The notes beneath the pieces were generated by a model. The model ran no database searches. It was not told the DNA's origin and saw nothing but the letters and a program-made list of their open reading frames with translations. DNA of 64,000 nucleotides from Opisthorchis felineus (taxonomy: Eukaryota; Platyhelminthes; Trematoda; Opisthorchiida; Opisthorchiidae). The position numbers and the translations under genes were made by a program. Location: assembly GCA_004794785.1 (NCBI GenBank), contig SJOL01006726.1, positions 209,627 through 273,626 on the forward strand. Direction: 5' to 3'. Positions 5,084 through 47,141 of this stretch are shown in pieces (positions within the stretch are counted from its first letter, which is position 1; each line of letters starts with the position of its first letter).

Positions 5084-5284
5084 GATATCCTTTCAGTCGC
5101 TGTTGCTGAAACAGAACGTGAGAAACTCTTCAAAAACCGAAGGTCGGCTTGGATGTTTGAAGTTCTCGGACGACTAGCGTCAACCTCAAGACTGCAATTT
5201 CATACTGCGCTCTTGGACTGTCCAACGGTATTTCTGCACACTAGCGCAGAAGTGATAAGTTCTCTGGTTTTTTAAAATAAAAAC

Positions 5285-5640
5285 TTCTTCCTGTAATTGA
5301 AGCCAAGCCTTACTGAAGATTTTAGAGACACTGTACAGTTGCTTCATTCTTGCTGTGATTCATCAGCAGTGCACGAAACTCCAGTTGAGAGTTTCGAACC
5401 TGCGACCTCCGGGGTAGTGGTTTGAACACTTAACCGGTGAGCCAGGTGCGGCTAATCGGCAGTGTGATTAACTCACGCTTAGACAGGATGCAGCGCCACT
5501 CACCCTCTGATCTCGGGGTTCACATCACGGTAGCGAGCATTTTAACTGGGTCCTTGATCGACAACTTCTCAAATGGAAGTTTCACTCATCTTGCGAAATT
5601 ATTCTTCCTCCGCACTACTCACAGATCGTTGGTAGTGTGA
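5285..5640 (-). repeat. Rep-A HHR-bearing SINE, near full length
   Basis: This is a near-complete Rep-A copy read on the minus strand. Its order is a head of about 180 bp, a tRNA-like A box, a B box (reverse complement of gtttcgaacctgcgacc near 5392-5408), a hammerhead motif at 5372-5329, and a tail ending in the complement of cctgtaattgaagcc. The same order recurs in at least ten other places in the window. It is non-coding and presumably mobilised by a partner retrotransposon. A further tail fragment in the same orientation follows at about 5670-5705. The HHR has CTGATGA intact but GAAAC changed to GAAGC. Confidence 0.75.
5329..5372 (-). ncRNA. Hammerhead ribozyme motif in Rep-A
   Basis: Read on the minus strand: stem I GCACTG pairs with CAGTGT, the core CTGATGA is intact, a 14-nt stem-loop II follows, then GAAGC (consensus GAAAC), a short loop, the triplet GTA and the stem I return strand. 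Stem II pairs poorly and the GAAA box has one substitution, so this copy is probably inactive. Confidence 0.5.
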
Positions 5641-6232
5641 GGAGATCTGGAAATTATTTTATTGAGATTGTGCTCTGTATGTGAAGCCAACCTCTGTTGA
5701 AGAGCGGAGAAGTGGTTATGGTAGAATCTGTTGAGGAATACCACTATTTTCAGGTTTGATTTTGTGATGATTTCGGACTACTTTGTGACAGAGGAAATCC
5801 TGTATTTTCTACAGAAGGCTTTGTGGAACCTCCTCCAGTTTGATGGGCAATACTTGCATTTGATTACCTCAGGAGTGGTAAAAACGTCTGAAGTATCATC
5901 CCATCAGCCATATCAGGCTCCCAAGAGACTTGTATATTCGGGCTAATTTCTTGTTGAGTGATCGCGACCCAGACGCAAAAAATACTCGGGAAGCATCGGG
6001 CAGCTGTACAGTTGTACAGTTTTTAGACTGTATGACTCGAGGGCTAACTTACTGGACCAGATTGACCTTCATTTTTTTAAGTTCCGACTTAGGAGGAGGG
6101 AAACTATTTCCTATCAGACCCTCTTCAGAAATGTCCGTTCTAAGCTGAAGGATCTACTTGAATGATTAGACTCTCTCAAGCTTTAGGATGTAGACAATCA
6201 CACCAATACTGTTGGGGATATCAGTATCCCCA

Positions 6233-7801: not shown

Positions 7802-9705
7802 AATAGTTGAAACAAACCCAGAAACATCCGGATCGGTTTTGGTCACTGGGAGGTAATCAGTACAAGTGATAGCATGTGGATTTTGAACCCAAACTTATTG
7901 ACGGTCAAATCAGATGTAACTTCTATTTTAAGCACGCTACCCCCTTTGCGATGCTAGGGGGCTGTTTTATCTGTCCTCAACAGCCACTGCTCGACGGGCG
8001 CCCTATTGGTTTCGTTAGTACCGCGGTCAAGGTGGATTGTGCCTTCTCACTTAGGTAAGCTGTTCAGCTGATGCACAGGAAAGTTCAGGAAAGTGTCTAA
8101 CGAGATTGACAGTTACTGATAGTTTTTAACAGGTCACCTATGCCTTTGACAGTAGACGTCTGCCGATTCCAACCGGCGTCTTCCTGAAGACGACAAGCTT
8201 TTTGTCAGGATTTTCACTTTGGGTTCAATAAGCAGTCAAACCATTCAAAATCTTGGATTGGAAGAAGAGTTTGTGCTCTCACTTATCACTCTTGGTGCTT
8301 TGCGACAAGAATAAATAAGCGAGAGCCATTTGAGTTCATTTCCCGGCAAGCCCGGTTGTATTCTTGGTTGCGTATTTTGCAAACGAATTAGGCCATTATT
8401 TTTCCAGTTGTAGTGTGCTTCTTCCCAAACGCAAAACGAGTCATCGAAGTCTCGGATTTTATGCAACATCTAGTATGATTTGAGTTACTACCCACATGAC
8501 TACAAATGATTGCAACGCACTGATCGATTGTGGAAAACGGTGAGTCTTTTATAGAAGTTAGTGCTGCTGTTTACAAAAGCTTCTTATTGTTACAGAAAAC
8601 TGAGCGCTTGTTGGTCGGATGCTGACGCTGACGGCGAGACGTTGTTGGTTGATCTTGGCGAATCTGGTCGAGGTGCGCGCTGCTTTGCAGAGTGGGCCTA
8701 GACCACTATCTTCTCGTGAGTCTTATATGGAGTCATCCAAGCACCAGTACCGAATGATGCAGGGCAGTTTAAAGCTTGTGTGCTTCCACTGAACCCGGAT
8801 CTCCCACATATATAAGTCACGTTAGCCGAGTTACTGATGGTAACTATGGCACCCAGTGGTTAAAACCACTTGTCAGGTAAACGGATCAGACGAAACCGTA
8901 GCCCGATAACTGTCAGACTGTTGTAACAATAAAGGACGTGCCTCCTGATCAGCCAGACCACCAGGAATGAGCCGGTTTGGCTCTCAGCAATCCGAACCTT
9001 CATATACGTTAGTAATAAGTTTTTCTGTGTAAAACAATTAATAATTACAAAATATTGACGTGAATATCGGTGGGCACAATTAGGGTGATTTGGTCATATT
9101 GCTTTTCAGGAATTCCCCCAGTTGAAGGAGTCCACCAGCTTATTCCTGTAGTTGCATCGGACAGTTCTTGCAGTGTGATTACACAAATCGAACGGTTATC
9201 CTTCTCTACCGGTTATTCAATTCATTCGAGTTTTCATACCCCCAATCAGCTGATCAGCTGATCTCAGTCAGACCACGTGACTTGACCAAGAGTGAACTAT
9301 AGTTGCGGGATTGGGCCGAATCGGATTTATCCTTCAGCGTTAGGCGCAAGTAGGCAGCAACCGCGCAGATACCGCAATAGCGTATTATCTGTACTATTGT
9401 GGTTTCTTGATGGTAGCTTTGTTTGTGAACAAGTGGCTGAATCGCAGTAACCATGCCGGTTACAATGTTTTGTATGAAGTTACGGTGTGCAGACTTCACG
9501 CAGGTAAGCAACAGGTTACAGGAGCACCGACGCTGTTACTCGGATAGGTTGACTTTAACTTGTTCGACAGGGCCTGGTGGCAAATTCGACCAATCGATTG
9601 TTGTCTTTGGGCGGAAGCTGGGCAATCTGAACTTCGAGTAAAGTGTCTTACGACATAGGGGAAAGATATCATCGTTACAAGGTTGCTACTGGAGTAACCA
9701 TATCT
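7802..9705. other. No recognisable feature
   Basis: No exon, RNA gene or assignable repeat was found here by eye. Confidence 0.4.
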
Positions 9706-9840
9706 GGGTTCAAGTAAAACATAAGGTTGACGGAAGATCGGGGACTGTGCCTACCAGATAAGCTCCAAGAAGGGCGAAGCCGGTCGTGGGCTGTCGAAGA
9801 GTTTTAAACAACCTTATGAGTAGTGTATTACGTCTATATC
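9706..9840 (+). repeat. Rep-D retrozyme-like repeat, HHR part
   Basis: This copy keeps the rod region of Rep-D. The arm CATAAGGTTG at 9720-9729 is perfectly complementary to CAACCTTATG at 9810-9819 (allowing one base for border choice), and between them lie shorter paired blocks and the hammerhead core. The rest of the roughly 300-bp unit is absent or unrecognisable on both sides. Confidence 0.7.
9749..9791 (+). ncRNA. Hammerhead ribozyme motif in Rep-D
   Basis: Stem I pairs GCCTAC (9749-9754) with GTGGGC (9786-9791), including one G-U. The core reads CAGATAA instead of CTGATGA. Stem II is GCTC/GGGC around CAAGAA. Then come GAAGC instead of GAAAC, a two-base loop and the GTC triplet at 9783-9785. 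The fold is preserved but three core bases are changed, so it is probably inactive. Confidence 0.55.
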
Positions 9841-9989
9841 TGGATAATGTTCTTCACACGCTTCTACGGATTCGGAAAGACCGCACGGCCGGCTCAGTTG
9901 ACTCACTAAACAATCGACTCACTCTAGTCCGGATATCACCCTCGGGTTAGGTGCAAAAATAGTAGTGTTTTATTTTTGAACTTCTACAG

Positions 9990-10960: not shown

Positions 10961-11149
10961 TAGCGTTTGAGTTCCTTGTTTTCAGTATCTGTTTGATATC
11001 AATGCCGCACGTTTATGGTGTTCTAAGTAAGGACAAGTTGCTTTTGCTGCTCGTTCTTGGAAAACAGAAAAACCCCGGCAAATCTAGACATTCGCCTCCT
11101 TCGTTTCCAACTTACACTGATTGTAGAGAATGTTGAATCTCTAACACGG

Positions 11150-11600
11150 ATTTCGTCCTGTAAGTGAAGCCAGTCTACGCTGAAAAGTCGAGGATCAATG
11201 TACACCTGTTCCATCCTTACTGGGAATCGACAGCAGTGCGCCCTGCACGAAACTCAAGTAAGTTTCGAACTGATGATGAGTGGAACATTCTTCTGAGAAG
11301 TCGTAACTCGAGGAGCTCGTCACTTACTATTTGACCACTTGATTCGAATTCGATGACTCATGGATGAGCAGAGCTATATCCTGTCTAAGTGGCAGCTCAC
11401 CATATTTCTGATGAACCGCTCCTGGCCGAGAAGTCAAGTGTTAAACCTACCAGGTGGGAGGTCACGGGTTTGAGACACTAGAGTTTCATGAGAGGCGCAT
11501 TGCTGATGATTCCCAGTAAAGATGAAACCACCGTGCAGCGCTTCTCGGCTTTTCAGCATGGACTGGTCTCACCTACAGAAGGAAATCTCTGTTTAAAGTT
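11150..11600. repeat. Rep-A pair, head-facing inverted arrangement
   Basis: From about 11150 to 11262 the sequence is the tail half of Rep-A on the minus strand, ending near its B box. From about 11270 to 11600 it is a plus-strand Rep-A with head, A-box-like segment, B-box-like segment (near 11464-11475), HHR and tail. The minus half also has an HHR remnant with CTGTCGA and GGAAC in place of the core boxes. The two copies point away from a common centre. Confidence 0.65.
11497..11541 (+). ncRNA. Hammerhead ribozyme motif in Rep-A
   Basis: Stem I strands are GCATTG (11497-11502) and CAGCGC (11536-11541). The core CTGATGA is at 11503-11509, stem-loop II is 14 nt, and GAAAC is at 11524-11528. 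Both core boxes are intact. The triplet at the cleavage position reads GTG instead of GTA; G at this position blocks cleavage in known hammerheads, so the copy is probably inactive. Confidence 0.55.
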
Positions 11601-12329
11601 CTCGAACCGCCTCAAACTTCCAACACTGTTGAGGTCTTTGAGGCTGAAGGAAACTGTGTTCCACCCATATATTAATTCGACCTGAAGAAACATCCTGAGA
11701 AAGCTTCAGAAATTTTCTTCCAACAATTTTTTTCAACGTTAAGCAGTGAACAAAATGAATCAAGTAGTACGGTTTCTCGCATTCGGATTTCATTGTATCC
11801 CGTTTTTTTTCTACCCTGGGTTTCAGAACAGTTTCTTAATTTAGCCCAGTTATTCAATAATCCTAATTGCCAGTGATTGACACACATTGGCGCAGCGTGC
11901 CGAATAGTCATCGTGAGGGTCACCTTTTGCCATTCAGACCATCAGGAAACAGCGTGTCCCCACCTCTTCTCACCTGAACGAAAACCCTCAAAAACGATAA
12001 GATAAAATAAGGAGCCCATACGGTTTTAACAACCAAGCGATGGTGATTGGTGAAAATCAATAATTATGGGGTTAGCGCGGGTTGTTTTTTCCTATATTTC
12101 CGCTTTCCTAGGTTCAATTGGTAACGAACTTTTCCCACCTGTGTGACCAGCGCATCTAATTCAGTCTAGCAGGGTACACACTGGTGCTGTGTATTCGTTT
12201 GTTAGCACTAGTCTTGTTAACCTAACACGCACTAACAACTTCGCGTCATATTCACCGGGGTGTGGTACCTTTTGGAGAGTAAATCAGCCACTTGGTGGAC
12301 TTTAAAATGTTTTCTCTTTAAAGGAGAGT

Positions 12330-12525
12330 ACTGGTAAAGTTACGGAAAACTCTTCGACAACCCATGATCGGCTTTGCCTTTCCAGCGCTTATCGGATGAG
12401 GACATCCGCGACTTTATGTCAGTTTTATGACTTTCTTGAACCCGAATTTTACAAAATTCGCGAAATGCCCTCATTTACACACCAATTTGTTTTCGACGGG
12501 AGAATCAACTGAAGTCCAGCTGATG
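12330..12525 (-). repeat. Rep-D fragment
   Basis: Minus-strand match to the Rep-D cleavage-site side (complement of ttcgacaacccatgatcggc near 12353-12372) and, further up, to the segment that pairs acacaccaatttg with the unit body near 12478-12490. The CTGATGA side of the ribozyme is lost. The intervening part is too eroded to align by eye. Confidence 0.45.
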
Positions 12526-13002
12526 TTGTTCAAATTACTTTACTTCAAAAAGGCCGCTTTATGTTTCGTTTGGAAAGATATTCAAGAGATCGCAGTCCAC
12601 TTTCATGCGGACTACACAAAATACTGCTGTCTTCTCCTTAGGTTTGTTTATTCGGGCAAACTGTTTTTACGGGGCAAACGCTTCAGCTACCACAATAACG
12701 TCTCCCCGACGGAGGGAAGTGTCACGTCTCCATTGTTGAGTCTTCCGGTAAGGCAAGGCCGAGAGAAATTTGCGGAAATCTATAAAACATTTTGGTTTAT
12801 CGGGTAAACATCGTTACTTGAGCATCGTTTTCATACACGTTGGACATTTACCCCTAAACCCGGTTGTTTTTGGAGTTGTTCCGGGGAGGTAGGCACAATA
12901 AAAACTAGAGGTTTTTCCATTTAGTTGTCAGTGGCAGATTTTCGGACGAAACCCTCATATCTTTCGTTACTTGAATATATGTGAGTTTCGGGAAGAATCC
13001 TT

Positions 13003-16849: not shown

Positions 16850-17600
16850 TATGCAGTGAAGGCAATAGCTTGGATGCACGAGCGCCATTGAGGGCGCAAC
16901 TTGGCCATGTCTGACAATGTCTCTAACCATTGATGGGTCCTGTCTCGGGGTTCCCATCCAGGGAAATGACTAGTGCGGCTAAGTTTGCTTGTAATGGCTT
17001 TCATGCTTTGCTGCCAAGTCATTGTTTGACTTCCCCTGGCTCGTTTCCACCCTTCATGTGGTTGTGCGAAAAGAACCCTTTCGAGAAAGCCGATCGAATG
17101 GCATACGCAGCACGCGGCCAAAACAGCGCAACCTCTGCAGTGTGATCAGTTCATCTATCGTGGATGAGTTATTTCTTCCGAAAACTATTCGTCGAACTTC
17201 AGCATTACTGATCCGGTGTTCTCACCAGTCCTGGGTAATAATCCGAAGACCTCGACGGTCAAACAGTGAAAACCTTTTGACATCCTCGGCACGCAGCGGC
17301 CAGTTTTCTGACCCGTATAGTAATACGGAGCGCACCGCAATATTGTAAATTCTACCCTTGACGGTTAAACTGATGTCATGCCTACTCCACTGGTGACGCG
17401 AGTTCACAAAAAATGCTCTGGCCTTCCCAATCCGGATGGAAATATCATCTTTCGCGAAACCACCGGAACTGGTACACCTGCCCAGGCTGCAATGATCCCG
17501 CGGGCTAAACTGGCTGGGTGCAAGGTGCAACCATGTCAGGAAGGCCAAAGTGGAGCAGTCAGACCAAGAGTAGCGAGACCCCGTACTACGAGTAATCGTG
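16850..17600 (-). pseudogene. Non-LTR retrotransposon reverse transcriptase, C-terminal fragment
   Basis: Minus-strand translation gives successive motifs of the flatworm non-LTR endonuclease-reverse transcriptase C-terminus: CTSSGGFAKDDISIRIGKAR, VLLYGSENWPLRAEDVKRFS, FDRRGLRII, then EHRISNAEVRR, TIDELITLQRLR, GWKRARGSQTMTWQQSMKAI and WLETLSDMAKLRPQWRSC. An in-frame stop (TGG changed to TGA) follows QDW near 17203, and at least one frameshift separates the upstream part from the GWKRARG part. The catalytic palm motif lies upstream in the intact protein and is not present. Elements of this class copy themselves by target-primed reverse transcription and can mobilise SINEs. Confidence 0.85.
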
Positions 17601-17765
17601 TATAATACGGTATAGCGCAGTAGAGTATAGTTGTGAAATGCACGATATAGTGTAGTATGGTATAGTATACTAGAGCATGTAGTGATACGTTATATTATGA
17701 ATAATATTATGGTTATTAGTTATACGCTATTATATGTATCGTTATGCAACAGTAGAATATACCAT
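17590..17765. repeat. Degenerate TATA-rich low-complexity tract (right flank)
   Basis: Irregular repeats such as ggtatag, gtatagt and ttatatta. It is the counterpart of the tract at 16500-16690 and borders the 5' side of the truncated retrotransposon. Confidence 0.5.
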
Positions 17766-17910: not shown

Positions 17911-17994
17911 GACAATAGTATGCATTCAGTACGTACCAATTATACTGGGGTATGAATTAGCTAATATCCCCATTCTTGCCATCTATATCGGCTA

Positions 17995-18140
17995 AACCGT
18001 GACATTAGGTGGCCTAGTGCAGCACATTCAGTTGCTTGAAAACATTATAAACGAGAGATTTAGCTAGGTTTCAGGTGAGTCTCTCGCAAACCCAAATTTG
18101 TTTGCAAATGAGTGTATTTCGCGAACAATTGATACTTTTA
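17995..18140 (+). repeat. Rep-D fragment (body, no ribozyme)
   Basis: Matches the Rep-D middle: a gaggtggc-like stretch, gcagcacattcagttg, ataaacgagagattt, gtgagtctctcgcaaac and gcaaatgagtgtatttcgcg. The ribozyme segment is absent. Confidence 0.5.
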
Positions 18141-19451: not shown

Positions 19452-20035
19452 GGAAAAGCCGAGAATCACTTTACAGCTGTTTCATCCTCATTGGGAGCCG
19501 TCAGCAGTGTGAACGTTACCAAACTCCAGTAAGGAGTTTCGAACCCGCTACCTCCAGGCTAGTAGTTGGAACACTAAACCGTTCCACCACGAGTGGCTGA
19601 TCAGCAGTGTGATTATCTCTCACTTAGACAGGACAGAGCACCGCTCGTCCTTCAGCCGTACGGACCACATCTCGTGGTCACGTATTGTCTGGCTCCTCGA
19701 GTGACGACTGCTCAGATGGAAGCTCTGCTCATATTTTTGGAACTATTCTTCCACAGAATCACTAGTAGATTGATCACGGTATAATGATACTTTGACATTT
19801 TTATTCTGTCAGTGCCCGAGATGTAGAATCATTTTACAAGGTGAGTGAAAATTTCATCTCTGAAGTTGTCACTCAAGGAACCAGCCACTAGGTGACCATG
19901 AGATGTGGATCCCGTATATGAAGAATAAGTGGTGGTGCTAAGTGAGAGCTATTCACAGTGATGTTCAGGCGCTTGAGACTGAAAGGTTAAGTGTTTAACC
20001 ACTGACCAGAAGGTCACTTTTCAAAACGCTCGTGA
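19452..20035. repeat. Two Rep-A copies (minus 19452-19760, plus 19848-20035)
   Basis: The first copy reads on the minus strand with tail, HHR, B box (complement of gtttcgaacccgctacc near 19528-19544), A box and head in inverted order. The second reads on the plus strand and keeps the head (gaagttgtcactcaaggaac) and A/B region but has lost the HHR and tail. They face each other head to head across about 90 bp. Confidence 0.65.
19466..19511 (-). ncRNA. Hammerhead ribozyme motif in Rep-A
   Basis: On the minus strand: stem I CACTG against AAGTG, core CTGACGG instead of CTGATGA, stem II TCC/GGA around CAATGA, GAAAC intact, loop AGCT, triplet GTA intact. Two core substitutions make activity unlikely. 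Confidence 0.5.
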
Positions 20036-20159
20036 GATCGGTCCGCACCGGTTGGTCTCACTGCCAGTACGAAATATTAGCTAGAAATTACAAAATACCA
20101 TCGCCGTACGATAAATCAGTTGTGACGACCACTGCTGATAAGTCTTTCTAAAAAACAAA

Positions 20160-20430
20160 AGCTGCTTTTTCCAGACAATCAGTTCTGAACAACATCGTAA
20201 ACGATAGATTCGGCTGGGTTCCAGGTGAATCTCCCGTCAAAACCAAATTGCTACGAAACTGAGTGCATTTGTCGAAATCTGTCCAACTCGAGTTCTAGTA
20301 GAACATAAGGTTGACGGAAACCCGGGGACTTCACCCAACTGCTGAGCCCCAAGAAGGGCGAAACTGGTCGTGGGCTGTCGAAGAGTTATTAGCAACCTTA
20401 TGAGTAGTGTATTATGTCTAGACAGTCCTG
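20160..20430 (+). repeat. Rep-D retrozyme-like repeat, most of a unit
   Basis: Contains the body (cgtaaacgatagattcggct, a gtgaatctcccg-like part, a gagtgcatttgtcg-like part), then the rod with arms CATAAGGTTG (20304-20313) and CAACCTTATG (20393-20402), and the post-cleavage stretch gagtagtgtattatgtc. About 270 bp of the roughly 300-bp unit is recognisable. No ORF. Confidence 0.75.
20332..20375 (+). ncRNA. Hammerhead ribozyme motif in Rep-D, well-preserved stem II and III
   Basis: The core reads CTGCTGA at 20339-20345 (A to C at the fourth position). Stem II GCCC/GGGC encloses a six-base loop, GAAAC is intact at 20360-20364, loop TG, triplet GTC at 20367-20369, then GTGGGC. One core substitution and a mismatch at the base of stem I are the lesions. 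Confidence 0.65.
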
Positions 20431-21490: not shown

Positions 21491-21779
21491 GTGGTATTCA
21501 ACAAATTCCTGAACTGTTCCACTCCCCTTGGACATCGTAGCTGTTTCGGAAGGTTTGCATCCTCAATAAAGATGTAAATGTTAATACCGTGTTTTAGATA
21601 GAGGCGTTTACTCTTCGCAGGGTAAACATCTTTCAGAGCCATCAGCGGGCTTCCTCTGGGTGGCTTCCACAAGATGTTCACGTCGTACAGTTGCGAAATC
21701 GGGAGCCCATTTAAGCGCGGCATCTGTCCAAAACGAGAGATCCAGCTGTGTTCTAAGGTAGTCCGTATGCTGACCGAAT

Positions 21780-21925
21780 ATCGTTCCAACTGGAACATGA
21801 GGCGGCGTGCTGCAGCACATTCAGTTGAAGTAGAAGGTCGTGAACAAGATCTTCAACTGGAACCCAGTTGAAGCTCCCGTGTAAACCAACTTGGTATGCA
21901 GATGAGTGTACTTAATTCTGTGGCA
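21780..21925 (+). repeat. Rep-D fragment (body, no ribozyme)
   Basis: Matches Rep-D at atatcgttccaactggaac, gctgcagcacattcagttga and gcagatgagtgtactt. The ribozyme part is missing. Confidence 0.5.
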
Positions 21926-22689
21926 TGACAATACCATCTACACCGATACTCCTTCGTGTAGCTAAAAAGAATTTTGTAAGGGAAACTGCTAGAGAGTGGG
22001 TGACGAATGATTGCATCAGTTGGATAACGCCCCCACCATTAGGGTTTGAAAAGAACGGAATGAGGTAAAAAAAAGTTTGCCCGTATGGACGTACACCATG
22101 GTCTGTCCTTTTTCAAGACAACTCTGATGAAAACGCTAGTCGTCCAGGTATTCTTTTAATCGGAAAGATGGGATTTCTGTTAAAACCACTCATACACAAA
22201 CGAAAGACAATGGGCAACACTCAGTGGACAAAATATATATCACCGGATACGGAATATCACTGAAGATTAAGACCAGATGTTAAAACATGTGGTCATCAAT
22301 TCATCGCCAAAAGGTGAATACACACAAAGTCATAAAAATGCATCAATGACGTGAGCATCGTTTATCGGGCCAGTAGGGTGTACACAGGTGTGTTTGTAGG
22401 TTTACTGAACATAAGCACCCTGGTTACGCCGACAAATTTGCGCAACAGCCAAACCAGATCCGTGGTCATATCGATTTACCGTTCAAGCTATTTGTCCGGC
22501 CAGTCGGTAAAGTCTAAAAAACTGAACGGACTAAATTTCCATCGATGCAGATGAAGAATTTGAGAACCGTGCCCGCTTTGTTTTCGATTTCAGTCCTAGG
22601 CGCCGAATTTTGTTTAAGCTTTATCCTAATCTGATTGCAGATTAGTCGGTTCCCATATTTTCTTCCAGCTTTCTGATAAATTTTCAACT

Positions 22690-23150
22690 GAGAATTCTTT
22701 CTTCAAGAGAAGCTAATTCATGCTGAACAGCTGAGAAACGCTGATACAGCTGCTTCACTAATCGTCAGCAGTGCGCAACTCACGAAACTCTAGTAGGAAG
22801 ACTTGAATCCGCGACCTCCATCAATCACAGAAACATCACGTGGTCACGTGTTTATCGACCTTGTGATTGGCTCTATGGGTAGCTCAATCAAAAAACAATT
22901 TCACGAGTTGAGTGACGCTTCTATCTAGGAAGCCGTCACTCGAGGAGCCGGTCGATCAACACGTGATGCAGTTTCCGTGACTGAAGCACGAGTGACGCCG
23001 TATCCTGTCTAAGTGCGGATTATTAGCCGAACGGTTAGGTGTTCCAACTACTAGCCGCGGGGAGATCGCGGGTTCGAAACTCCCTACTGGAATTCATAAG
23101 ATGCACAATCCCCAATAAGGCGGACGTTTCAGCGCAGACTAACTTCACTT
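22690..23150. repeat. Rep-A head-to-head inverted pair
   Basis: 22690-22890 is Rep-A on the minus strand (shortened around the HHR, with stem II deleted). 22905-23150 is Rep-A on the plus strand with a clear internal pol III-type promoter: A box tagccgaacggttagg at 23024-23039 and B box ggttcgaaactcc at 23071-23083. The HHR of the plus copy is lost. This is the clearest promoter among Rep-A copies. Confidence 0.7.
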
Positions 23151-23499
23151 AAACGAGGAATTTTTTTATTAAAATATACAGATCTACGCTTGGAAGACGA
23201 CTCGGAAACGAGGAAAAACCCACAAGATACAAAGAAGGTGATCGGATCGTCATATTTGCTTTCTGTTCAAATATCAAGTCTACATTTTCAAATGAATACA
23301 TATCATGGTTCTTTACAACTTGTTGCAGGAAACAAAATTCCATCAGTGTAAATTTTAACTGAATGACAAAGCCACCAAGGTTTCCTTCATGGTAAATGAA
23401 ACTCTAAGTATGTCTCAGTTCGAGATCTTTCTGGGTTGAATTTTTGGGCTCCAAAAAAAACGGAATGAAACGAAACCGTGGATAAAATATGGCTTCAGT

Positions 23500-23625
23500 T
23501 AGAACATTGGGGTGATGGAAACTACTGGACCGCATCTACCTGATGATGTCTAAGAAGGGCGAAACTAGTCTCGGGCTATCGAAGTACTTTAAGCAACCTT
23601 ATGAGTAGTGTGTTACGCCTAACTA
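23500..23625 (+). repeat. Rep-D retrozyme-like repeat, HHR part
   Basis: Rod region with 3' arm CAACCTTATG at 23594-23603 and a weakened 5' arm near 23505-23514, then gagtagtgtgttacg as in other copies. Confidence 0.65.
23534..23576 (+). ncRNA. Hammerhead ribozyme motif in Rep-D, both core boxes intact
   Basis: CTGATGA at 23540-23546 and GAAAC at 23561-23565 are both intact, with stem III AC/GT, loop TA and triplet GTC at 23568-23570. Stem II retains only two pairs and stem I has mismatches at its core end. This copy preserves the conserved core bases but not the helices. Confidence 0.55.
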
Positions 23626-25081: not shown

Positions 25082-27715
25082 AAAATTCTGTTGTATCTGT
25101 CAAGCACGATTCATTCATAGGGAGTCGCTTGGCATATTAGCGCTGCAGAGACAGGTGTCTACTAAGGGGTTCTCTTTCGTAAATCGTACGCCATAACACA
25201 TTCAAATAGGGTCGCTCTATCTAATTTTCAATAATCGTTTTTTTATCCTATGTTTGTAAATTCATTTGCTGCAGTGGGCGCATTTCAGCTCTTGCATTGG
25301 TCTGAGAAAGTTCGGTGAATTGACACGATATGTCTTTCGCCGGTTCCGGTTTTTATGTATGCTTGCAGTTCAAGCCGATTTTGACAAGATGACCAGTTTG
25401 CCCGAGCTCCATCCTACCTGTTTAGCGCGCATGCTTCCTAATCGTAACCGACTTCGAAACACATGTTCTCAAGCAATCTGACTATTTATTCACTGTTTGG
25501 CATTCTTTCGTTTCCACCTTCCCTTTGCTTTGAAAGCTGAAGTTTTTTTATTTTCTGGGTGCACATAAACCTTGGTTTCACCGTACTGTGCGTTTTGCAA
25601 GTTTCCGTCATCACCGTGTTTATGGGACATCATCAGGCTGTGGGCGAATAAACCTCGTGAACTATTCCGGGTTTTCAACTCTCAGTAAACGTACACTTCT
25701 GCAGGCAGTTGGATTCTCGCAACGAAATTCTAGCGAATTATGTAAATGTCCTTCACAATAAGGGGGCACACTTGGTGCTATCTTGTCAAACACGCATATC
25801 AACAGTATAACATTTGTCCGGCAGCATGAAAGAATGACTGCGATTTTCCCGTATTTGACCTTTTAGCGATGCCCGGAAGTTACTCCTCTGGTTCTGCGAT
25901 GAAGGGTAGCCAAAGACATACAGGTTTCGTAATTTAGCCATGTGGCAATTTACGCCAATTGTTATGGCAGATTTACATGGAATATTCCTACAGTTTCAAC
26001 AAGAACACAGTGACAAATACCATTGCTTTCTGGGTTTCACCATCAGGTCAGTGCATTTCTGATGGCTAAAATAAGAGTAAATAATGAAGTGAACAACGAA
26101 GATTGGTCACTAAATTAGAAGACCGATGAGTAGTTGTCAGTGCATCCTACGCTGCATCTAACTGGATGCTGTGAGATGGTATGGAGGGCCACTGAGCGAC
26201 TAGGTCGATCGATTCCTGTCACATGACCTAAACACATTCAGCGCTCGTACGAATTGCAGTTATCTAGATCTTTCCCTCGGAAAGCAGTATCAAAACATTG
26301 GCTTACATTGCATTTTTTTATATTTGTAATTACGACACCGGAAGTAAATATATGATTGACAGAAAGGACCAGTAAGAACGCACTGGTGAAGAACGAAATG
26401 GATACCCAATCATACGAATGAGAAAGATGAGTTTAGTAAAATACCTCCAACTTCCTACCTCAAAGTGACGTAGTTTACGGGAAACCATAGATAGGAACGC
26501 TGAATTGGTGATTGTTCACACTAAAAGACCACATTATAGGGGCAGCAAAATCTGTACAATAATCAATAACTTTTTAGTGTTAAGGTTTTGAAAGTATGCT
26601 CATTCGGTAAAACAGTAGTAAGAAATTCAAGCAAAAATTGAGCCATAGTGGAGAAGGCAAGGATATGCAGTAGCCTGAATGAGATCACAAATACGCACTG
26701 TGCGAACCTGAGGATAGATGTCCTAGGATGGAACATGCAACTGTGGACTCTCACTTACCGGAAATGTGTTGTGCCGACTGAGCTACGGCGCATACTGCTC
26801 CAAGTATACTTCGGTCCCAAACTCCTCCTCTCTAGTAAGGAGAGAACAGCGGGTTCGAGTCCCATCCGAGTATGTGTTGCTGTATTTATGTCGTTTGTAA
26901 CATGCGTCACTGAAGTGTCAAATTTTTTTGTATATATGCAACCTCCGCAAAAAGCGACGTCTTTAGGGAAACAGGCACTTTGAAGATCCAAAGATTTAGT
27001 TCCAGGTAGAAAACATATTGATTGGGTCTCCAGGTATGCCTTCTTTCCACACTCAGATTTCCTGGATCATGCGTTCTCGATGGATATTCTCTGATGATAT
27101 CTTGGAAATCCTAAATTTTATGACTAGAAAGTATGTTTGAAGTGATACATGCCTTTCAGGACAACTTATTTATTCATTGGAGCGCTTTAGGATCCTTGAC
27201 GAGCCAAGTCAAGGAAACTGTAAAAGAGCTGGAAGCCTTATCATGGAAAACAGCTCCACGAATTTGAAACTACTGTGGGTTTCCATAGAAAACGCACCTT
27301 CGGTAACCCTGACAAGTTTGGCATTCTCTTCTACGAGAGAACACATGCACTGAAGCGAGTTAAAGTGGTATTTTTAAGCATATCTGCGGCACAAACCGAA
27401 AGCTAATTAAAAATATTTGAAGTGGTTTCTCAAGTATTTTTTTGAAGCAGAAGTGGGTACAAAAACCGTGAAGAACGGGTAAGACAACAGTGGCCTTGCG
27501 TGTTTATCACTGGTTGCCTTCTTGAGTAATTTTCATATGGTATTTGTACAGTACACATATTAAGACAACAAAAAAATGGGCCGGTGAAAAATACCCAGCT
27601 CCTTCAACGTGGACAAGTAGTCGCATTTCGCTGTTACGGATGTAGATGGGATTTAGTTGAGTCATCCGTCAAATTGAAATCAGTGTGCAAACGACAGTGT
27701 TTTGCGGATTCCGTC
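25082..27715. other. Mostly anonymous; tRNA-like promoter remnant near 26760-26860
   Basis: On the minus strand near 26765-26790 the text reads gccgtagctcagtcggcac, a good tRNA-type A box. On the plus strand near 26850-26863 the text gggttcgagtccc resembles a B box. They do not form one cloverleaf, so these look like two facing fragments of tRNA-derived repeats. Nothing else was recognised in this stretch. Confidence 0.3.
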
Positions 27716-28092
27716 CAGTATGGATTCAAGTAGGACTCAGGCTTGACGGAAACTCGAGACTGTACCTACCTGATGACCCCGAAGTGGAATGGCGCTACCT
27801 GTCGTGGGCTGCCGAGGAGTCTTCGGCAACCTTATGAGTGGTGTCGTACGCGTAGAAAACCTAATGAGATATCTCGAGTATCGTACTACGTGAAACATGA
27901 GGCGGACTGGCCCAGTGCGTTTAGTTGAAGGGAACCATCATGAACGAGAAACTCAGCTGGATGCAGTTCAGTCACCCGGTAAAACGAAATTCATGGCAAA
28001 TTCCGTTCTATTTGGGTTTAAGCGGAACGTAAGGTTGACAGAAACTCCGGGACTGCGGCTGCCGGATGAGCAAAACATTGGGAGTAGATTCC
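27716..28092 (+). repeat. Rep-D partial tandem (one unit plus start of the next rod)
   Basis: The segment around 27736 (cttgacggaaactcgagac) recurs at 28028 (gttgacagaaactccggga), giving a unit length of about 292 bp. The first rod ends with CAACCTTATG at 27827-27836, followed by the whole body: ggcggactggcccagtgcg, gttgaagggaaccat, gaacgagaaactcagctgg. The first HHR keeps CTGATGA (27770-27776) but has lost GAAA. The second has neither box intact. Tandem residue of this kind is what rolling-circle or circular-RNA templates leave when copied. Confidence 0.7.
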
Positions 28093-28439: not shown

Positions 28440-28560
28440 GTGGACTGCGTCAACAACAGTCAACAACCTGATGAAGCGCAAGTAAGACAAAACCGATCAT
28501 AGGCTGTCCAAGAGTTTTCAGCAGTTTTATGAGTAGTGCATTACGTTTCGCAACCTCTTT
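28440..28560 (+). repeat. Rep-D fragment with eroded HHR
   Basis: CTGATGA is intact at 28468-28474, but the GAAAC box reads AAAAC and the triplet reads ATC. The downstream match aggctgtccaagagttttca and ttatgagtagtgcattacg identifies the family. Confidence 0.5.
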
Positions 28561-29212
28561 AAGATACCTCCTCAAGACCTCACGGTGTCGATCTCGCAAA
28601 ACGAAGGGCGCTGTTGTTCCTAAAGTAACTCATGAGCTTCAAGTGAACCGTAGTGTTCTAAACGAACCACACAGTGGTGAGGAAGGATGCCCCAAAACTG
28701 CCCGAACAAAAACCTACGCCCCCTGAAACCCAATTCAATTTTTTTGACCATAAAAAGTGCATGAAGTGCGGCGTCACACCAAACAGTATGATGATGATCA
28801 TATCTAAATGTGCCTCCTAGTACCGTCCTACAGTATCGGTCAAGTCATGTGGAAGATCCTTCCAGGCATCAGTTGGAATACGGAAGCCTTAATGTGAAGT
28901 TTTTCCTCGAATCAGTTCACTTCCCTCTTTGGAGGGTGTGCAGCTGCACAAAACCACAAATGTCTGTGGGCAATTCGAACCACTGGCCTTTCATAAGAGG
29001 ATGGGAATTTGCCGATAGTGATATTATGCCTTCTTAGAACATTTTTGTATCGCACACTTGTCAGCTGGCTTTGTATTCACAGATAAATTCTCGTGTAATT
29101 ATCTGGCCTGATGGAAAGGTTGTTATATATATATAACTATGCTGTCATTCTCAGTAGCTTTCTAGGTCTCCACATGTCTACACCGGTAATTGTAAATCCA
29201 GTTTACAATAAA

Positions 29213-29975
29213 GATTTCATCCTGTCAGGGAAGTCAATCTATGCTGAAAATCCGAGAAGCACTATAGAACTGTTTCATCGTTTTTGGGAATCATCCGCAA
29301 TGCTCATCTCACCAAACACCGGGTAGCATCGAACCCGCGACTTTCTGGCCAGTGGTTGAGTACCTGACCGTTTGGCCACAAGTATCTGATCGCCAGTGTG
29401 ATTAGCTCTCACTCACACAGCGCCACTCATCTTTCAGTAACGGAGACCATATCGCGTGTTAACTGGCTTTTTGGGTAACGACTTCTCCGAAAGAAGTTTC
29501 ACACATCCAGTAAATTCTTCCTTCCTGTGAGTTGCATATTGGATCATGATGCCTACTTGGAAGGAAGAGATTACATTTAGGCCTCGTTTTCCCGTAATCC
29601 TGCCTATTGGGGTGGAGGCAATCCTAACAACTTATTCCTGCTGAATTTTCTCGAGTTCAGACAATATGTATGTTGGTATCCACGTCCCTATCGATTAATC
29701 GTTTCATCTTTGACCCTAGCAAGACTGTGCTAGGGCTAATGAGGGGCGGGTTTTCGACAGTATATCTCCCCGGCGGCGGTCATCTGGCACATGACGAGAC
29801 CAAGTTACCCCAAGCTCTACCAGCACATCTTGGCAGGCCTCTTCCTGTAAGCAATGCCAATTTATGCAGAAAATTCCAAAAGCACTATAGAGTTGTCCGA
29901 CTCCTATTCGGTCTCATCAGCCCTGCACTCCTCACGATTCTTCGGGAAGAATCGAACCCGCAAAATTCGCGCTAG
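29213..29975 (-). repeat. Two Rep-A copies, minus strand (29213-29545 and 29845-29975)
   Basis: The first is near full length; its HHR has CGGATGA in place of CTGATGA, GAAAC intact, and CTA in place of GTA. The second keeps tail and HHR remnant (CTGATGA intact, GAAAC lost). Between them (29546-29844) nothing was recognised. Confidence 0.6.
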
Positions 29976-30089
29976 TAAGTGGGGGAGGAATCTCACAAAA
30001 GGTAGAATAACCCTCAAGACGACGGAGCCTGCAACCTAAGAAGCCGCAATTTGGGAAGCCACTTGACCATTTGATGTAAAATACCTGAG

Positions 30090-31062
30090 TAAGGGATGAG
30101 TAGCGCAGTGTCCTGTCGAACTGCGAGTTTGTCAACAACCGAGAGGTCGAGAGTTCCAAACTCTGTTGAGTTTAATCAGGCACGCTCTGTTCATGATTCC
30201 CAATGGGGATGGAAAAGCTGTAGAATGCTTCTCGGCTTTTCAACATGGGCTTACTTGAGTTACAAGATGTAATGTCGACTGTTTCAAAATCTCGTCACAC
30301 TGCCAAAACACTTCGGAGAGGGCCAGAATTATCACGCTAGCGAAGACATACAAGCTGGTACTTGGTGACTCGAACGATATTTTGGTGGCTGCCATGGATA
30401 GATAGGTGGACAAAATCATGCGCAATGCTGCACTTGGTTCCAACTAAGGATTTTGGAACAAACTTTGGGAACAACGATGGAAAGATCTTACTTTCGACTC
30501 TATGAGTAAGATTTAGTGGGCTTTTTCGCGGCATCCGGAAACTACCAGGTGGGAAGTCGCGAGTTCAAGACTCCATGGAGTTTCTTGGGATGCGCCTTGC
30601 TGATTATTCCTAATAAGGGAGAAACAGCTTCTCGGTTATTCAGCATAGATGAGCTCTCCTTACAGGACAAAATCTTCACAAAACTTCCAGAATCTCCTCA
30701 CACTACCGACAGTCTTTAGGTAGCTCAGAGCAGGAATAAAATTCACCCGATGAGTGAGCTTTCCATTTGGGAAGTTGTTGCTCGAGGAGCCAATCAACAT
30801 GTGCGACCATATGGCATGGACCTCGTGATTGAAGGATGACTTCGTTATATACCGTTTAAGTGCGAGTTAATCACGCTGCTGATCAGCCACTGGTGGCTAA
30901 ACGGTTAAGAATTCAAACTTGTACCTTGGAGATCGCGGATTGGTGACTCCGTGGAGTTTCGTGGGATACGAACCGCTGATGATCGCCAAAAAGGGCGGGG
31001 CAGCTGTACAGTGCTTTTCGGCTTTTTAGCATGGACTGACTTGACCTTTACCGATCAGGTAT
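30090..31062 (+). repeat. Cluster of three Rep-A copies, plus strand
   Basis: Copies lie at about 30090-30262, 30535-30715 and 30745-31062, all in the same orientation and separated by short unrelated sequence. The last is nearly complete with head, A box (near 30893-30908), B-box region and HHR. The HHR of the last copy has CTGATGA intact at 30972-30978 but GAAAC replaced by a G-rich run. The middle copy has CTGATTA and an intact GAAAC but has lost the cleavage triplet. Confidence 0.65.
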
Positions 31063-31727: not shown

Positions 31728-32040
31728 CTGGGATTTCGTCTTGTAAGTGAAGCTGAGAAGCACTTTTTCATCCTTGTTGGAAATCCTCATCAGTGCGCAT
31801 CCGAGGAAACTCGGGAATCTCGTAACTTTCTGACAGGCGGTTAAACACTGAACCGTTTGGCCAAAAGCGGCTGAACAGTACTGTGATTAGCTTCTAGTTA
31901 GACAGGATAGAGCGCCAATCGCCCTTCAAACACAGAAACCACGTCACGTGTTCTCTTGTTGAAAGAAAGGCTCCTCGAGTGACGACTACTCTATGAGTTG
32001 TTACAAGCATCTTTTGAAATTATTCTTCCTCTGAGACAGC
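31728..32040 (-). repeat. Rep-A copy, near full length
   Basis: Minus-strand order of tail, HHR remnant, B/A region and head is complete. A deletion around the GAAAC-to-triplet segment removes the HHR stem III and cleavage site. Confidence 0.65.
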
Positions 32041-32639
32041 TATCGATTGAGTGAAATTTGATAAATTTTAATCAAACGTCGTATCCAATGGATCGCCTTT
32101 TCGGTGTGGACCAAACAAAATAAGCACGCCTAAACAGGAGGCGAGAGTTTCGTGTGGCAGCAGTGCAAAGCCATGTGGTTTAGTGAACCAGTTTCTCCAT
32201 ACGCGATTTACAGTTATTTACCCCATTCAAGTTTCACCTCTTTACCGGACTGATTGATAAGATCTCTTAGGCGGGTTGCTGTTCAGAAGCAATTCATTAA
32301 ATTCTGATTGACGTTTTGCATTTTTGGTTTGTGACTTGTCTAATAAGCAGTCGTTTCCCATCGTGCGCCAAAGGTACGGTTATGCACCTTTGAAAATTCA
32401 CTGCACTATATTGGTCCCAACAGGTGATAACAGAATGCTCCCCCGAGGAACGTTGCACTGTGGCTTCAAAGTGGCATAACTAAATCAAATCTTCTACCTT
32501 CCATATTTACGGTTTTTAACATCGTTGCGGCCGTGACGTGGTGCCATTGGTGCGATCGATCGATGTCTGGTGCTGATAAGCCATTCCAAGAGTGCCTATT
32601 TGATCTCTCTATAAAGTATAACAGAGGAAACTTCAGTCT

Positions 32640-33000
32640 TAGCGAAATACATTCATTTGCGAACAAATTTGGTTTTGCGAAAGGCTTACCTGGAACCCAG
32701 CTGAATCTCTCGTTTATGATGTTTCTAAGCAACTGAATGTGCTGCATCAGGCAACTTCATGTTTCAGTTGGTATTATATTCGAGATATAGCGATACATGC
32801 ACAGACGTAACACACTACTCATTAGGTTGCTTAAAGTTCTTCGACAGCCCACGACCGATTTCGTCCTTCTTGGGGCTCACCAGGTAGGCGCAGTCCCCGA
32901 GTTTCCGTCAACCTTATGTTCCAATTGAACCCAAATTGCACGAACTTAGCGAAGTACACTCGTCTGCAAAACAAATTTGGTTTTGCGAGAGACTCAGTCT
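32640..33000 (-). repeat. Rep-D partial tandem, minus strand
   Basis: Read on the minus strand, the body segment around 32973 recurs at 32665 (both contain aaatttggttttgcga on the plus strand), a spacing of about 308 bp. The rod between them has arms at 32918-32909 (CATAAGGTTG on the minus strand) and 32829-32820 (CAACCTAATG). This copy is one of the least eroded, covering more than one unit length. Confidence 0.75.
32847..32889 (-). ncRNA. Hammerhead ribozyme motif in Rep-D, best-folded copy
   Basis: Minus strand: stem I GCCTAC/GTGGGC fully paired with one G-U; core CTGGTGA (one substitution, A to G); stem II GCCC/GGAC with one mismatch; loop CAAGAA; GAAA intact; stem III with one G-U; triplet GTC. 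The single core change at an invariant adenine would be expected to cripple cleavage. Confidence 0.65.
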
Positions 33001-33648: not shown

Positions 33649-35139
33649 CTGCAGAATAAAGGAACAAAAAGCAGGGTTGATCAGAACTCATAACCGTTAG
33701 GATTTGGAAACCAAGGTTAAGATGCAGGTCGTTCTATCCCGACAAACAAATTTGCTGAACCAAAAGTGTTCGAGATCTGTGTTCTATACCAGCTATATGC
33801 CCGCTGGAGAATGCTCCAGGAGAACAACAAGTCACCGATGAGGCTAAATTTGACATCCGCTAGTTTGGTTGAGACAGATTCATGAAATAGAAATCTATTT
33901 AGGTCGATGAACAGCCAAAAAATCACTTTTTTGACTGCGGCGAAAGTACATCTTAACGGAAATCTTCAATAGCGGGAATCAATGACAGCAAAAAGACGTT
34001 TTAAACTTCAGGCAGCACATGGAAGTTTAGGCGCACATTTAGGTAGCACGGGACAGTGAACGTAGACCATTTTGAAGATATCTGAATCACTCGGATGAGA
34101 ACCGTCCAAGTGCTCTTCTCCAGGAGCGATCCAAGGCACTGCTAGTTACCTAGAAAGTGCATAATCTGAAGATGTTAGCCTGTGATCTCTTCGAAAACTC
34201 AGTCAGTTTAAACTGATATCAACTCATGACTTGCACTCCCGGCCTCTTCAGTGTCGGCGTTGCGGGCAGACACAACACTTGGTGCAGTTTGTCCTTTCAC
34301 TCAGTGGCGATGCGTGAATGTTTACGCAACCATGTGGTGTCAGTTTTGCCGCAAACGCAATACTATTTTGGGCGAATTTCATAGGTTAACAATAGGTGGG
34401 TTTTGGTTGCACCTACCACAGGGCTTCTTACACAGAGGAAAATTTCAGGAAAGCTCAATGAAACTCGCTTGGCTCACTAAAACACTGGGTTTGGTTTGAG
34501 TCACAAGGCGAGGACTGAAGCATATTACGAACAGTCATTAATTTGTATACTGGTTTAATGCAGCACTGCAGTGATCTTCGTGCCCGACCAGACGTCTTTT
34601 GCTAAACTTCCATAATGGCCACATGGGCATGCAGAGTAAGTTTAGCGCCGAATTAAGACGCCACGCTTAACCAGCTAGGAACAGTCCCTGTTTGTTTACC
34701 ATCATTTAGGATTAGGTGAAGCCTAATGGGACGACGTGGTTGCCCAAACCAAAACAAAAATTTAGTAGGCTGTGTCGCCGATTATGGGGAATTCAGTAGA
34801 ACATTTGTGCTTGAAAGCAGACGGAAAGTAAACACTATTAAAGTGAAAAGGGTCGAAGTCAATCGAAAATATAACCGTCATGTTGATGTTCAGGTTTGCC
34901 GAAGTTCAGTCTGGTTCGCCAGTGGCTTCAAAGCATACATTTTCCGTCGGCTATGAAGCAGTCAAGTGTTCACCTTGGGTTGAAAGATCGGAGATCTGCA
35001 CATTGCGTGCTTTCCACGAACTTCTCGTAACACTACCGAAAGCGCCGAAAGCGCTTTGACAGCAACGCTGTACAAAATCCCTCCTAAGGTTTTATACAAG
35101 CAAGGCTGAAGAAATTCTCGTAATATTTGTCCAGATGTA
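33649..35139. other. Intron sequence, nothing recognised
   Basis: It lies between two putative exons of the minus-strand gene. No repeat family or exon was assigned. Confidence 0.4.
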
Positions 35140-35370
35140 ACACACTTCCTATAAGGTTGCTCGAAACTTTTCTGCAACTCACGACCAGTTTCTCGCTTTT
35201 CGGGGCTCACCAGGTAGGCAACATTCCAGAGTTTTCATCAACCTTGTGATCTGGTTGAACCCAAATCAGTTTTTGACATATGCTCTCCCAAGAAGGGCGA
35301 GAACGGTCGTGTGCTGTCGAAGAGTTTTCAGCGACCTCGTGAGTGATGCGTTGCGTCTCCTTATGGTTGT
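35140..35370. repeat. Rep-D inverted pair
   Basis: 35140-35262 is a minus-strand Rep-D rod with arms near 35151-35159 and 35239-35248; its HHR (35219-35177) has CTGGTGA and intact GAAAC and GTC but a poor stem II. 35263-35370 is a plus-strand copy that keeps the stem II loop region (ccaagaagggcg), cleavage triplet and post-cleavage part but has lost CTGATGA. The pair forms a long imperfect palindrome inside the intron. Confidence 0.6.
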
Positions 35371-36454: not shown

Positions 36455-36890
36455 TGAATCTACGCTGAAATGTCGAGAAGCACTATACAGCTGTTTCATC
36501 CGTATTGAACATCACCAGCAGTGTGCATTTGACGAAACTTCAGTAGGAGGATTCGAATCCTGTACTTCCCTTCTTGTGCTTTAACAGTTAGCCGAGCGAC
36601 TAATCAGTAGTGCGATTAACTCGGACAAAATACAACACCACTAGTTCGTCAATCACATAAAGCCACGTCATGTGCTCACGCTTTTTTGACTAGCTCCTAA
36701 GGTGATATCTTCTCAAATGGAAGCATCTCTTGTCGAGTGAATTCTACTCTTCATCTGAGCTACTTATAGACTGTTGATAATGTGAGGAGTTTTGTAAATT
36801 TATGTAGATTTTTTCCTATGAGTGAGGCGAAGCAGTGAAGCCAAGAAGCACGGTAGAGCTTTTCCACCCTTATTGGGAATCAACAGTTCA
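36455..36890 (-). repeat. Rep-A copy plus tail of a second copy
   Basis: 36455-36775 is a near-full-length minus-strand Rep-A with tail, HHR, B box (complement of gattcgaatcctgtac near 36550-36565) and head. 36826-36890 repeats the tail and part of the HHR in the same orientation, so the two are in tandem. Confidence 0.65.
36480..36524 (-). ncRNA. Hammerhead ribozyme motif in Rep-A
   Basis: Minus strand: stem I ACACTG against TAGTGC (five pairs including G-U), core CTGGTGA with one substitution, GAAAC intact, loop AGCT, triplet GTA intact. Stem II is reduced to G-U pairs. The downstream TCTC pairs with an upstream GA-rich strand only weakly in this copy. Confidence 0.55.
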
Positions 36891-38330: not shown

Positions 38331-38334
38331 AAAA

Positions 38335-39212: not shown

Positions 39213-39627
39213 AAAGTGTGCAGTTTGAAATCCCGCTCCTCACTTTGATGTTGTTCGGACCGCCGTAAAATTGTGATCTTAGTCTAGCATGACTCGAGTA
39301 TAACTACACCAAATAAGAGGACCTCCCGGTTTAATCCCGATCACATCATTTCAGCAGGTTTCTCTTAGACTTAAGGGAGACTACAAATTGGCTGTACGGA
39401 GAAATCTGTTTCACTGAGAAGCTCAAACGACAAAGCTTGTTCAGTCTTGAGGGTAATAGATCCCGGATGCCATTAGAACTTCATTTTTAGTTAGCCTTTT
39501 CAATCGGACCTCCCAGAGTTCTCTGACTAAACCACAAAGTTTTCACGTTCCCATCAGTCTGATCTAAACCGTCCTTCTCTTGTCGCAATTATTCCGGTGA
39601 ATCCACACCAAAAGGGAAGAATCGCTG

Positions 39628-47030: not shown

Positions 47031-47141
47031 TTTTCAGTTGAGATTTCTTCCTATAAATGAAACACATCTGTAGCAAAATGCCGAGAACCACTGCGCAGCT
47101 TGTCCATTCTTTTTGAGAATCATCAGCAGTGCGCATCTTAC

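Follow-up and report, generated by a model that had tools for sequence, protein, structure and literature searches.

The repeat family Rep-D of Opisthorchis felineus is a non-coding, non-autonomous element of the metazoan non-LTR retrozyme kind, which is a known kind. The ends of its insertions point to copying that is primed on both strands of the target and starts from two internal sites of the Rep-D RNA, likely by a Penelope-like protein, a reading to which we give a probability of about 0.64. The window referred to throughout is a 64 kb stretch of contig SJOL01006726.1 (62,656 non-N bases) from a 630 Mb assembly (GCA_004794785.1), in which 18 Rep-D fragments covering 3,210 bp were detected with full-length units as queries. 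In the assembly, 40 places (L001-L040) were picked by their match to a 100-bp hammerhead query. Insertion ends were mapped in the window, in 38 loci fetched for Rep-D matches and in two 10-kb stretches at a tandem array (L041 and L042), with the duplicates L001 (part of the window) and L003 (part of L041/L042) dropped from the counts. This yielded 73 insertions with 109 fragments, a fragment total that depends on the settings (109 or 105). The array, which is located on contig C1508 and split over L041 and L042, counts as two of the 73 insertions. Its L042 part, in which five fragments follow one another and the last is a weak minus piece, was left out of the end counts.

The hammerhead was characterized in an alignment of 59 Rep-D copies, retained from 67 distinct rows after six antisense readings of the same places and two gapped copies were dropped. 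Their majority sequence is a type I hammerhead capping a 27-bp stem I, which consists of the blocks CATAAGGTTG/CAACCTTATG (10 bp), GGAAACTC/GAGTTTTC (8 bp, one pair of which is mismatched in 30 of the 59 copies), GAC/GTC (3 bp) and GCCTAC/GTGGGC (6 bp), while the core is composed of CTGATGA, stem II GCCC-CAAGAA-GGGC (4 bp), GAAA and ACCGGTC. Every hammerhead part that the initial annotation of this DNA had assigned to the consensus is thereby present, and all six copies it had named were located by blastn, together with further ones, e.g. at 27743 (+), 12429 (-), 28466 (+) and 44153 (-). Its argument that about 27 nested base pairs of stem I are unlikely to arise by chance agrees with the 27 bp of stem I and 4 bp of stem II that were seen. 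It was also right that a long stem I encloses a type I hammerhead whose stem III is weak, and in placing what is a dispersed family among the kin of schistosome SINE-like DNA, Penelope-like elements and animal retrozymes. The two preferred 3' ends, the head-to-head insertions with their target duplications and the second hammerhead family described below go beyond that annotation. CTGATGA is retained in 47 of the 59 aligned copies, and CTGATGA, GAAA and GTC together in 36; among the eight aligned copies of the window, CTGATGA is kept in three. The motif CTGATGA-N(10-18)-GAAAC occurs five times in the window compared to 0.14 expected occurrences (none of 100 shuffles reached five), and only two of the five belong to Rep-D.

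Recognition by the Rfam hammerhead models was partial. At least one hammerhead match was found in every one of the ten Rep-D loci searched, and the best match of intact copies outside the window was to Hammerhead_HH9 (RF02275; up to 36.6 bits, E 6.5e-6), a model which resembles Rep-D in its 6-bp stem I and in stem II and its loop. The maximum of Rep-D lies, however, under the gathering score of 52 bits of RF02275, and across 19 sources including the window no match reached the gathering score. An intact 104-nt copy folds into the predicted rod (z -3.8), and the minimum-energy fold of the lone core, in which part of CTGATGA is paired, is not a hammerhead. Covariation among the copies, whose absence from stem I the initial annotation had named as a possible refutation, gave no support to the fold, the covariation score being not above that of shuffles (201/500). 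Of the alignment cells in predicted stems, 92% can pair, compared to 34-45% when the structure was slid along the alignment. Changes on both sides were detected in nine pairs, a number reached by 3 of 500 shuffles, and slid structures give 5-10 such pairs. The hammerhead is real as a motif of the Rep-D family, and the copy at 9720 is dead.

That copy, in which the hammerhead had initially been reported, is part of a decayed Rep-D fragment at 9702-9845 (+) that runs from unit position ~290 through 307/1 to ~104-126. Its rod and hammerhead, as read from the letters, occupy 9720-9818 (+), with the outer stem at 9720-9729/9809-9818, the inner part of stem I at 9749-9754/9786-9791 and stem II at 9762-9765/9772-9775. 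The core is broken, reading CAGATAA at 9755-9761 and GAAG at 9776-9779; the cut would be expected after 9785. An HH9 match was obtained at 9739-9813 (E 0.055), and the 139-nt stretch around the copy folds no better than shuffles (z -0.48).

A two-pair stem III (AC/GT), as originally proposed, is sterically impossible within one molecule, in which the loop would be 2 nt. With ACCGGT between GAA and the cleavage C, a single molecule allows one pair closed by a palindromic CCGG tetraloop, and between two neighboring Rep-D units the palindrome ACCGGU could form 6 bp. Because this palindrome provides a shared 6-bp stem III, the active form of the Rep-D hammerhead in head-to-tail transcripts is most likely a dimer, as judged from sequence and calculated energies. 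For two subfamily A rods in tandem the dimer-active fold was calculated at -79.7 kcal/mol (minimum -80.4), and two active monomers at -75.2 kcal/mol without stem III and -64.2 kcal/mol with its single pair. The corresponding values for subfamily B are -92.1 for the dimer, -92.8 for the minimum, -87.6 for monomers without stem III and -76.6 kcal/mol for monomers with the single pair. The minimum-energy fold in tandem is not a hammerhead, and it lies just 0.6-0.7 kcal/mol below the dimeric hammerhead. A dimeric ribozyme has been described for newt and axolotl repeats, of which axolotl Amex1, like Rep-D, has a one-pair helix III with a palindromic tetraloop (PMC7229834).

The Rep-D unit is larger than the 100-bp motif and is arranged head to tail, with a length of 307 bp in subfamily A and 293 bp in subfamily B; position 1 is the start of CATAAGGTTG and the ribozyme cut falls at 66/67. 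Units of 307 bp form the array at L003/L041/L042, and units of 293 bp are found in L008, in L010 and at the end of that array; the pieces of the array share 98.8-100% identity with unit A or B. Arrays make up a minority of the insertions. Only 17 of the 109 fragments are longer than one unit, four of these being pieces of the one array. The GC content is 0.466 and 0.451, and no protein-coding ORF was found in the units, the longest stop-free stretch in six tandem units being 66 and 125 aa. A predicted circular RNA would be 64% paired, with a minimum-free-energy z of -3.8 (A) and -5.1 (B). A Pol III promoter was considered as a candidate and rejected on the box scores, since the best A box matched at 9/11 and the best B box at 8/11 positions, short of an internal promoter.

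These properties are shared with the metazoan non-LTR retrozymes, for which a type I hammerhead, tandem units of a few hundred bp, a GC content below 50%, the lack of a long ORF and self-paired predicted circles have been described (PMC7229834). Both unit lengths lie within the head-to-tail unit range of these elements (~150-450 bp). Their target duplications exceed the 4 bp of plant retrozymes (PMC7229834), and those of Rep-D measure 7-14 bp. Platyhelminths are named in passing among the animals with such retrozyme repeats (PMC7229834). Among the few papers that full-text searches listed for hammerheads together with Clonorchis or Opisthorchis, none reports fluke hammerheads as judged by title or abstract. 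A type I hammerhead in interspersed SINE-like repeats is likewise shared with the Smalpha repeats and the HHR W-elements of Schistosoma (PMC8490949). In contrast, preferred 3' initiation sites and head-to-head pairs are not described for metazoan retrozymes in the relevant passages of PMC7229834.

The outer 3' ends of Rep-D insertions are strongly clustered. Two 21-nt intervals hold 77 of 99 such ends (P 7e-47 against a uniform distribution), 41 of them at positions 105-125 (site 1) and 36 at 265-285 (site 2), and nine of 100 5' ends fall within the same intervals. Among the copies of the window alone, 11 of 18 outer 3' ends lie at the two sites. Since the intervals were set after the ends had been seen, only a set of 20 later 3-kb stretches, taken at one fixed coordinate on 20 long contigs that were known from their Rep-D copies, tests them afresh. 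In these stretches (48.3 kb non-N) nine Rep-D fragments were detected, compared to none in a reversed-sequence control, and as read from the match table all eight ends that were not cut by the stretch are at site 1 or site 2; a ninth, 7 bases from the end of its stretch, was set aside. The window and the later stretches, i.e. sequence not chosen for Rep-D, together place 19 of 26 outer 3' ends at the two sites.

Single copies in the window illustrate this pattern. Their 3' ends are at site 1 in an old 320-bp copy at 12310-12629 (-), which exceeds its best-matching 293-bp unit, in the copy at 20152-20424 (+), which carries a hammerhead (HH9 match at 20323-20389, E 0.022), in the copy at 23486-23617 (+) with intact CTGATGA and GAAAC, and in a fragment at 28466-28545 (+). 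Site 2 is the 3' end of fragments at 17985-18125 (+), 21775-21913 (+) and 51505-51631 (+), and of a copy with 89% identity at 32639-32996 (-) that is longer than one unit. An old copy at 27639-28071 (+), also longer than one unit, ends at unit position 44 and thus at neither site. Short single insertions running from unit position ~289-307 to site 1 recur in L007, L012, L014, L027 and L040 as well as in the window at 9702 and 23486, and consist of little beyond the hammerhead rod.

The 5' ends behave differently from what cleavage products would leave behind. Of 100, one is found 5 nt or less from the ribozyme cut, compared to 3.3 expected, and none of 26 is that close in the window and the later stretches, a number too small to exclude a minority of cleaved templates. 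As there is no pile-up at the cut, linear cleaved monomers show no sign of being the usual template. Mild clusters were detected among the 69 young 5' ends, with 12 at positions 181-200 and 14 at 281-307.

In subfamily A, site 1 reads AGTG[CT]ATTACG and site 2 reads AGTGTATTTCG, which end at positions 113 and 276, i.e. at 3' ends of the insertions themselves, and have the motif AGTG[CT]ATT[AT]CG in common. When the site-1 11-mer was searched on the same strand of unit A, site 2 was the best other match, and matches elsewhere were 7/11 at most. The match covers 10/11 positions for the older form, which 6 of 2000 shuffles equaled, and 9/11 for the young form (82 of 2000). In subfamily B the motif is missing at site 1 and copies end there nonetheless, so that the shared motif is only suggestive of an initiation signal.

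Head-to-head organization, in which an insertion starts with a minus and ends with a plus piece, was found in 29 of the 73 insertions (26 simple pairs and three longer forms). The opposite order, plus start and minus end, occurs in a single insertion, the L042 part of the array with its weak 78% piece at the end. By their outer ends, 19 of the 29 combine site 1 with site 2, one has site 2 at both ends, none has site 1 at both ends and nine have an unassigned end, which makes 19 of the 20 pairs with both ends assigned. The rule is weaker in the window and the later stretches (four of six by our reading), where one pair has site 1 and one has site 2 at both ends, both being old window copies. 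These are the pair at 35118-35344 (35118-35287 minus, 35287-35344 plus), whose outer ends are both nearer site 1, and the pair at 38320-38814 (38320-38476 minus, 38515-38814 plus; hammerhead at 38558), whose outer ends are both nearer site 2. The window pair at 53541-53679 ends at site 1 and site 2, and for that at 44153-44433 the outer ends are at site 2 and at position 94, close to site 1. A fold-back DNA element or MITE, with the two halves as terminal inverted repeats and a transposase acting by cut and paste, would account for inverted halves flanked by target duplications. The outer ends of the halves are however different (site 1 and site 2, with ~11 nt in common) and their inner parts variable, singles with one half as well as multi-unit tandems exist and the duplication length is not constant, and we give this explanation next to no credence.

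Subfamily membership agrees between the two halves in 23 of 26 pairs, and the identities of the halves are correlated (rho 0.69, P 9e-5). Variants were compared in the 16 pairs with enough overlap: the shared fraction is 0.41 within pairs (27 of the smaller total of 66, with 10 of the 27 from L005) compared to 0.20 between different insertions. On the grounds of common subfamily, correlated identity and shared variants, each head-to-head pair is probably the product of a single event from one source. Copying of one strand that then primes itself by snapping back, in place of priming on two strands, is the preference of the authors for Penelope of Adineta vaga, with antisense RNA as template and palindromes at the inverted junctions (PMC3846280). 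A simple snap-back predicts, however, that the halves meet at one unit position, and in Rep-D the 5' positions mostly differ, e.g. 187/287 in L016 and 267/127 in L021; in addition both outer ends cluster at initiation-like sites. Self-priming is therefore very improbable for Rep-D.

Direct repeats of at least 7 bp flank 13 of 21 young pairs and three of 20 young singles, compared to none of 300 shuffled flank pairs (0.36% in an earlier control); eight young pairs and 17 young singles are without such a duplication. Altogether, target duplications of 7-14 bp were found in 16 of 41 insertions. At the inner joint, 14 of 22 young pairs show an overlap of 1-12 bases, a count that stands without a chance control. 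Taken with the fact that Rep-D is short, non-coding and 5'-truncated, these duplications and joints would also fit an ordinary SINE or satellite that a LINE mobilizes, with the head-to-head copies arising from LINE-type twin priming. Twin priming predicts that one 3' end is fixed and that the outer end of the inverted 5' piece varies. In Rep-D pairs, by contrast, both outer ends cluster, and the 3' junctions examined lack a simple-repeat tail. Two alternative 3' ends are moreover unusual among LINE parasites. We regard mobilization by a LINE as unlikely.

The mechanism that we favor is two-strand-primed copying. Tandem Rep-D transcripts would be cut by the dimeric hammerhead and the cleaved units probably ligated into circles, or uncut multimers might be used directly. 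A reverse transcriptase would nick and prime on both target strands, starting at ~111-123 or 273-281 of the unit, and the two cDNAs would extend toward each other, halt at variable points and become joined, often with a short overlap. The expected product is a head-to-head insert with its 3' ends outward, often with a target duplication of 7-14 bp, and this anatomy is seen. RNA cleavage, the circular RNA and the mobilizer of Rep-D are the steps that we infer.

The resemblance to Poseidon (Anolis) and Penelope (Adineta vaga) makes the protein of a Penelope-like element the likely mobilizing enzyme. In vitro, the Poseidon protein cuts and extends both strands and starts inside the RNA at two sites (PMC11167929). 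Its most frequent starts are 111-118 nt into the ORF, which with the hammerhead cut at 26 is 85-92 nt past the cut (PMC11167929). Site 1 of Rep-D (113-121) is 47-55 nt past its own cut. Penelope of Adineta vaga has head-to-head inverted pseudo-LTRs with an optional 31-bp tail, and duplications of 8-10 bp in some copies and none in others (PMC3846280). Head-to-head inverted copies, short duplications, tandem organization, two internal start sites, which in Rep-D are putative, and a hammerhead upstream of the initiation site are all common to Rep-D and Penelope-like elements (PMC11167929, PMC3846280). Differences exist as well. Penelope-like elements have an ORF for a reverse transcriptase with GIY-YIG, whereas the Rep-D units are non-coding; the two 3' ends described for the Penelope tail are 30-40 nt apart, compared to ~163 nt between the Rep-D sites; and Penelope-like hammerheads are described as minimal (PMC7761336), whereas Rep-D keeps a 6-bp stem I with an internal loop and a hexaloop II. 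The insertion footprint favors a Penelope-like candidate, as support by analogy and not as proof.

A screen for short reverse transcriptase and GIY-YIG motifs in 205-209 kb (window, loci and flanks of mostly 1.5 kb) gave one Penelope-like match, in L034, and one other RT-like motif, which is interrupted by a stop, in L040. The L034 match (262-468, minus) is a decayed reverse-transcriptase-like fragment with a YARYVDDT motif, which we take on that motif to be of Penelope-like origin; Pfam, PDB and protein database searches returned no match to it. A head-to-head Rep-D copy is located in the same locus at 1178-1651, flanked by a 10-bp repeat. These observations bear on whether Rep-D might be a pseudo-LTR, solo or in tandem, that belongs to an autonomous Penelope-like element, with the 307-bp arrays as pseudo-LTR arrays without an ORF. 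Pseudo-LTRs do bear hammerheads, occur in direct and inverted orientation and have been reported as solo copies (PMC3846280, PMC11167929), and the decayed fragment in L034 would fit such an origin. Yet the screen gave no more than the two motifs named above, the Rep-D copy in L034 has a 10-bp repeat of its own and no insert separates the units of the 307-bp array, so that we consider this origin rather improbable and retain Rep-D as a separate, non-autonomous retrozyme.

Besides Rep-D, the window contains a second hammerhead family, a ~380-bp repeat with CTGATGA-GAAAC at 11503 and 47630, a GCACTG/CAGTGC stem and a palindromic AGCT loop. Its 21 fragments in the window cover 5,431 bp and include copies at 5277-5712 (-), 11149-11653, 19453-20036, 22678-23107, 29208-29539 (-), 30000-31045, 31750-32049 (-), 36457-36903 (-), 46991-47767 and 56679-57048. 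Two copies matched the hammerhead models weakly (22.2 bits, E 0.23; 19.6 bits, E 0.99). Its tRNA-like boxes match at 11/11 (A) and 10/11 (B) positions, as for an internal Pol III promoter. Schistosome Smalpha hammerhead repeats were reportedly described by Ferbeyre in 1998. A SINE of the Smalpha type has an internal Pol III promoter, whereas Rep-D is without the boxes, and it is the second family that is nearer to the schistosome Smalpha in plan. Tandem copies occur in the second family too, and a minus start with a plus end was found in 10 of 25 insertions. Its ends cluster at 107-112 and 138-146, ~33 nt apart and ~52-57 and 83-91 nt downstream of the ribozyme cut of this family; these clusters, picked after the fact, hold 15 of 35 outer ends, and two of five in the later stretches. 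In the window and the later stretches (110,914 bases) both families together cover 10,933 bases or about 10% (Rep-D 4.2%, the second family 5.6%); restricted to the later stretches, their share is 2,292 of 48,258 bases (4.7%).

A third repeat, with five matches including the seed, was observed in the window at 39560-40000 and 55843-55945 (-) and in L009 at 2432-2573. Each of its strands has one hammerhead-like motif, CTGATGA..GAAAC at 39804 on the plus strand and CTGATGAGCTCTAATAAGAGTGAAAC on the other, and a B-box-like GGTTCGAACTC is present. An open frame of 155 aa at 17222-17689 (minus) matched DUF6451 below the cut-off (E 1e-4), which was the sole Pfam match among the four of 16 window ORFs of at least 150 aa that were searched, the 12 others overlapping N runs. 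ARAGORN detected no tRNA in the window.

The current view is that animal retrozymes spread via circular RNAs copied by a foreign reverse transcriptase, with the choice of that enzyme left open (PMC7761336). In the part of that account devoted to metazoan retrozymes no conserved motif reveals the mobilizing element, and Penelope-like elements are named as likely candidates (PMC7761336). For Rep-D, the retrozyme kind is what was known; what is newer, and testable, is the footprint of its insertions and how this fits Penelope-type copying. With a many-copy family that has a clear footprint in one genome, the question of the mobilizer becomes testable by boundary mapping alone, and the footprint hints at the RNA sequences that are read by the enzyme. 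As a tentative extension, which we hold to be doubtful at present, the Rep-D RNA might carry two copies of an initiation signal, at which the protomers of a Penelope-type reverse transcriptase dimer, one per nicked strand, could start at different sites of the same RNA; insertion would then proceed by coupled copying from two ends, and the dimeric hammerhead would assist in shaping the template or in releasing it. If true, this would identify the machinery by which animal retrozymes move and would explain why site 1 is paired with site 2.
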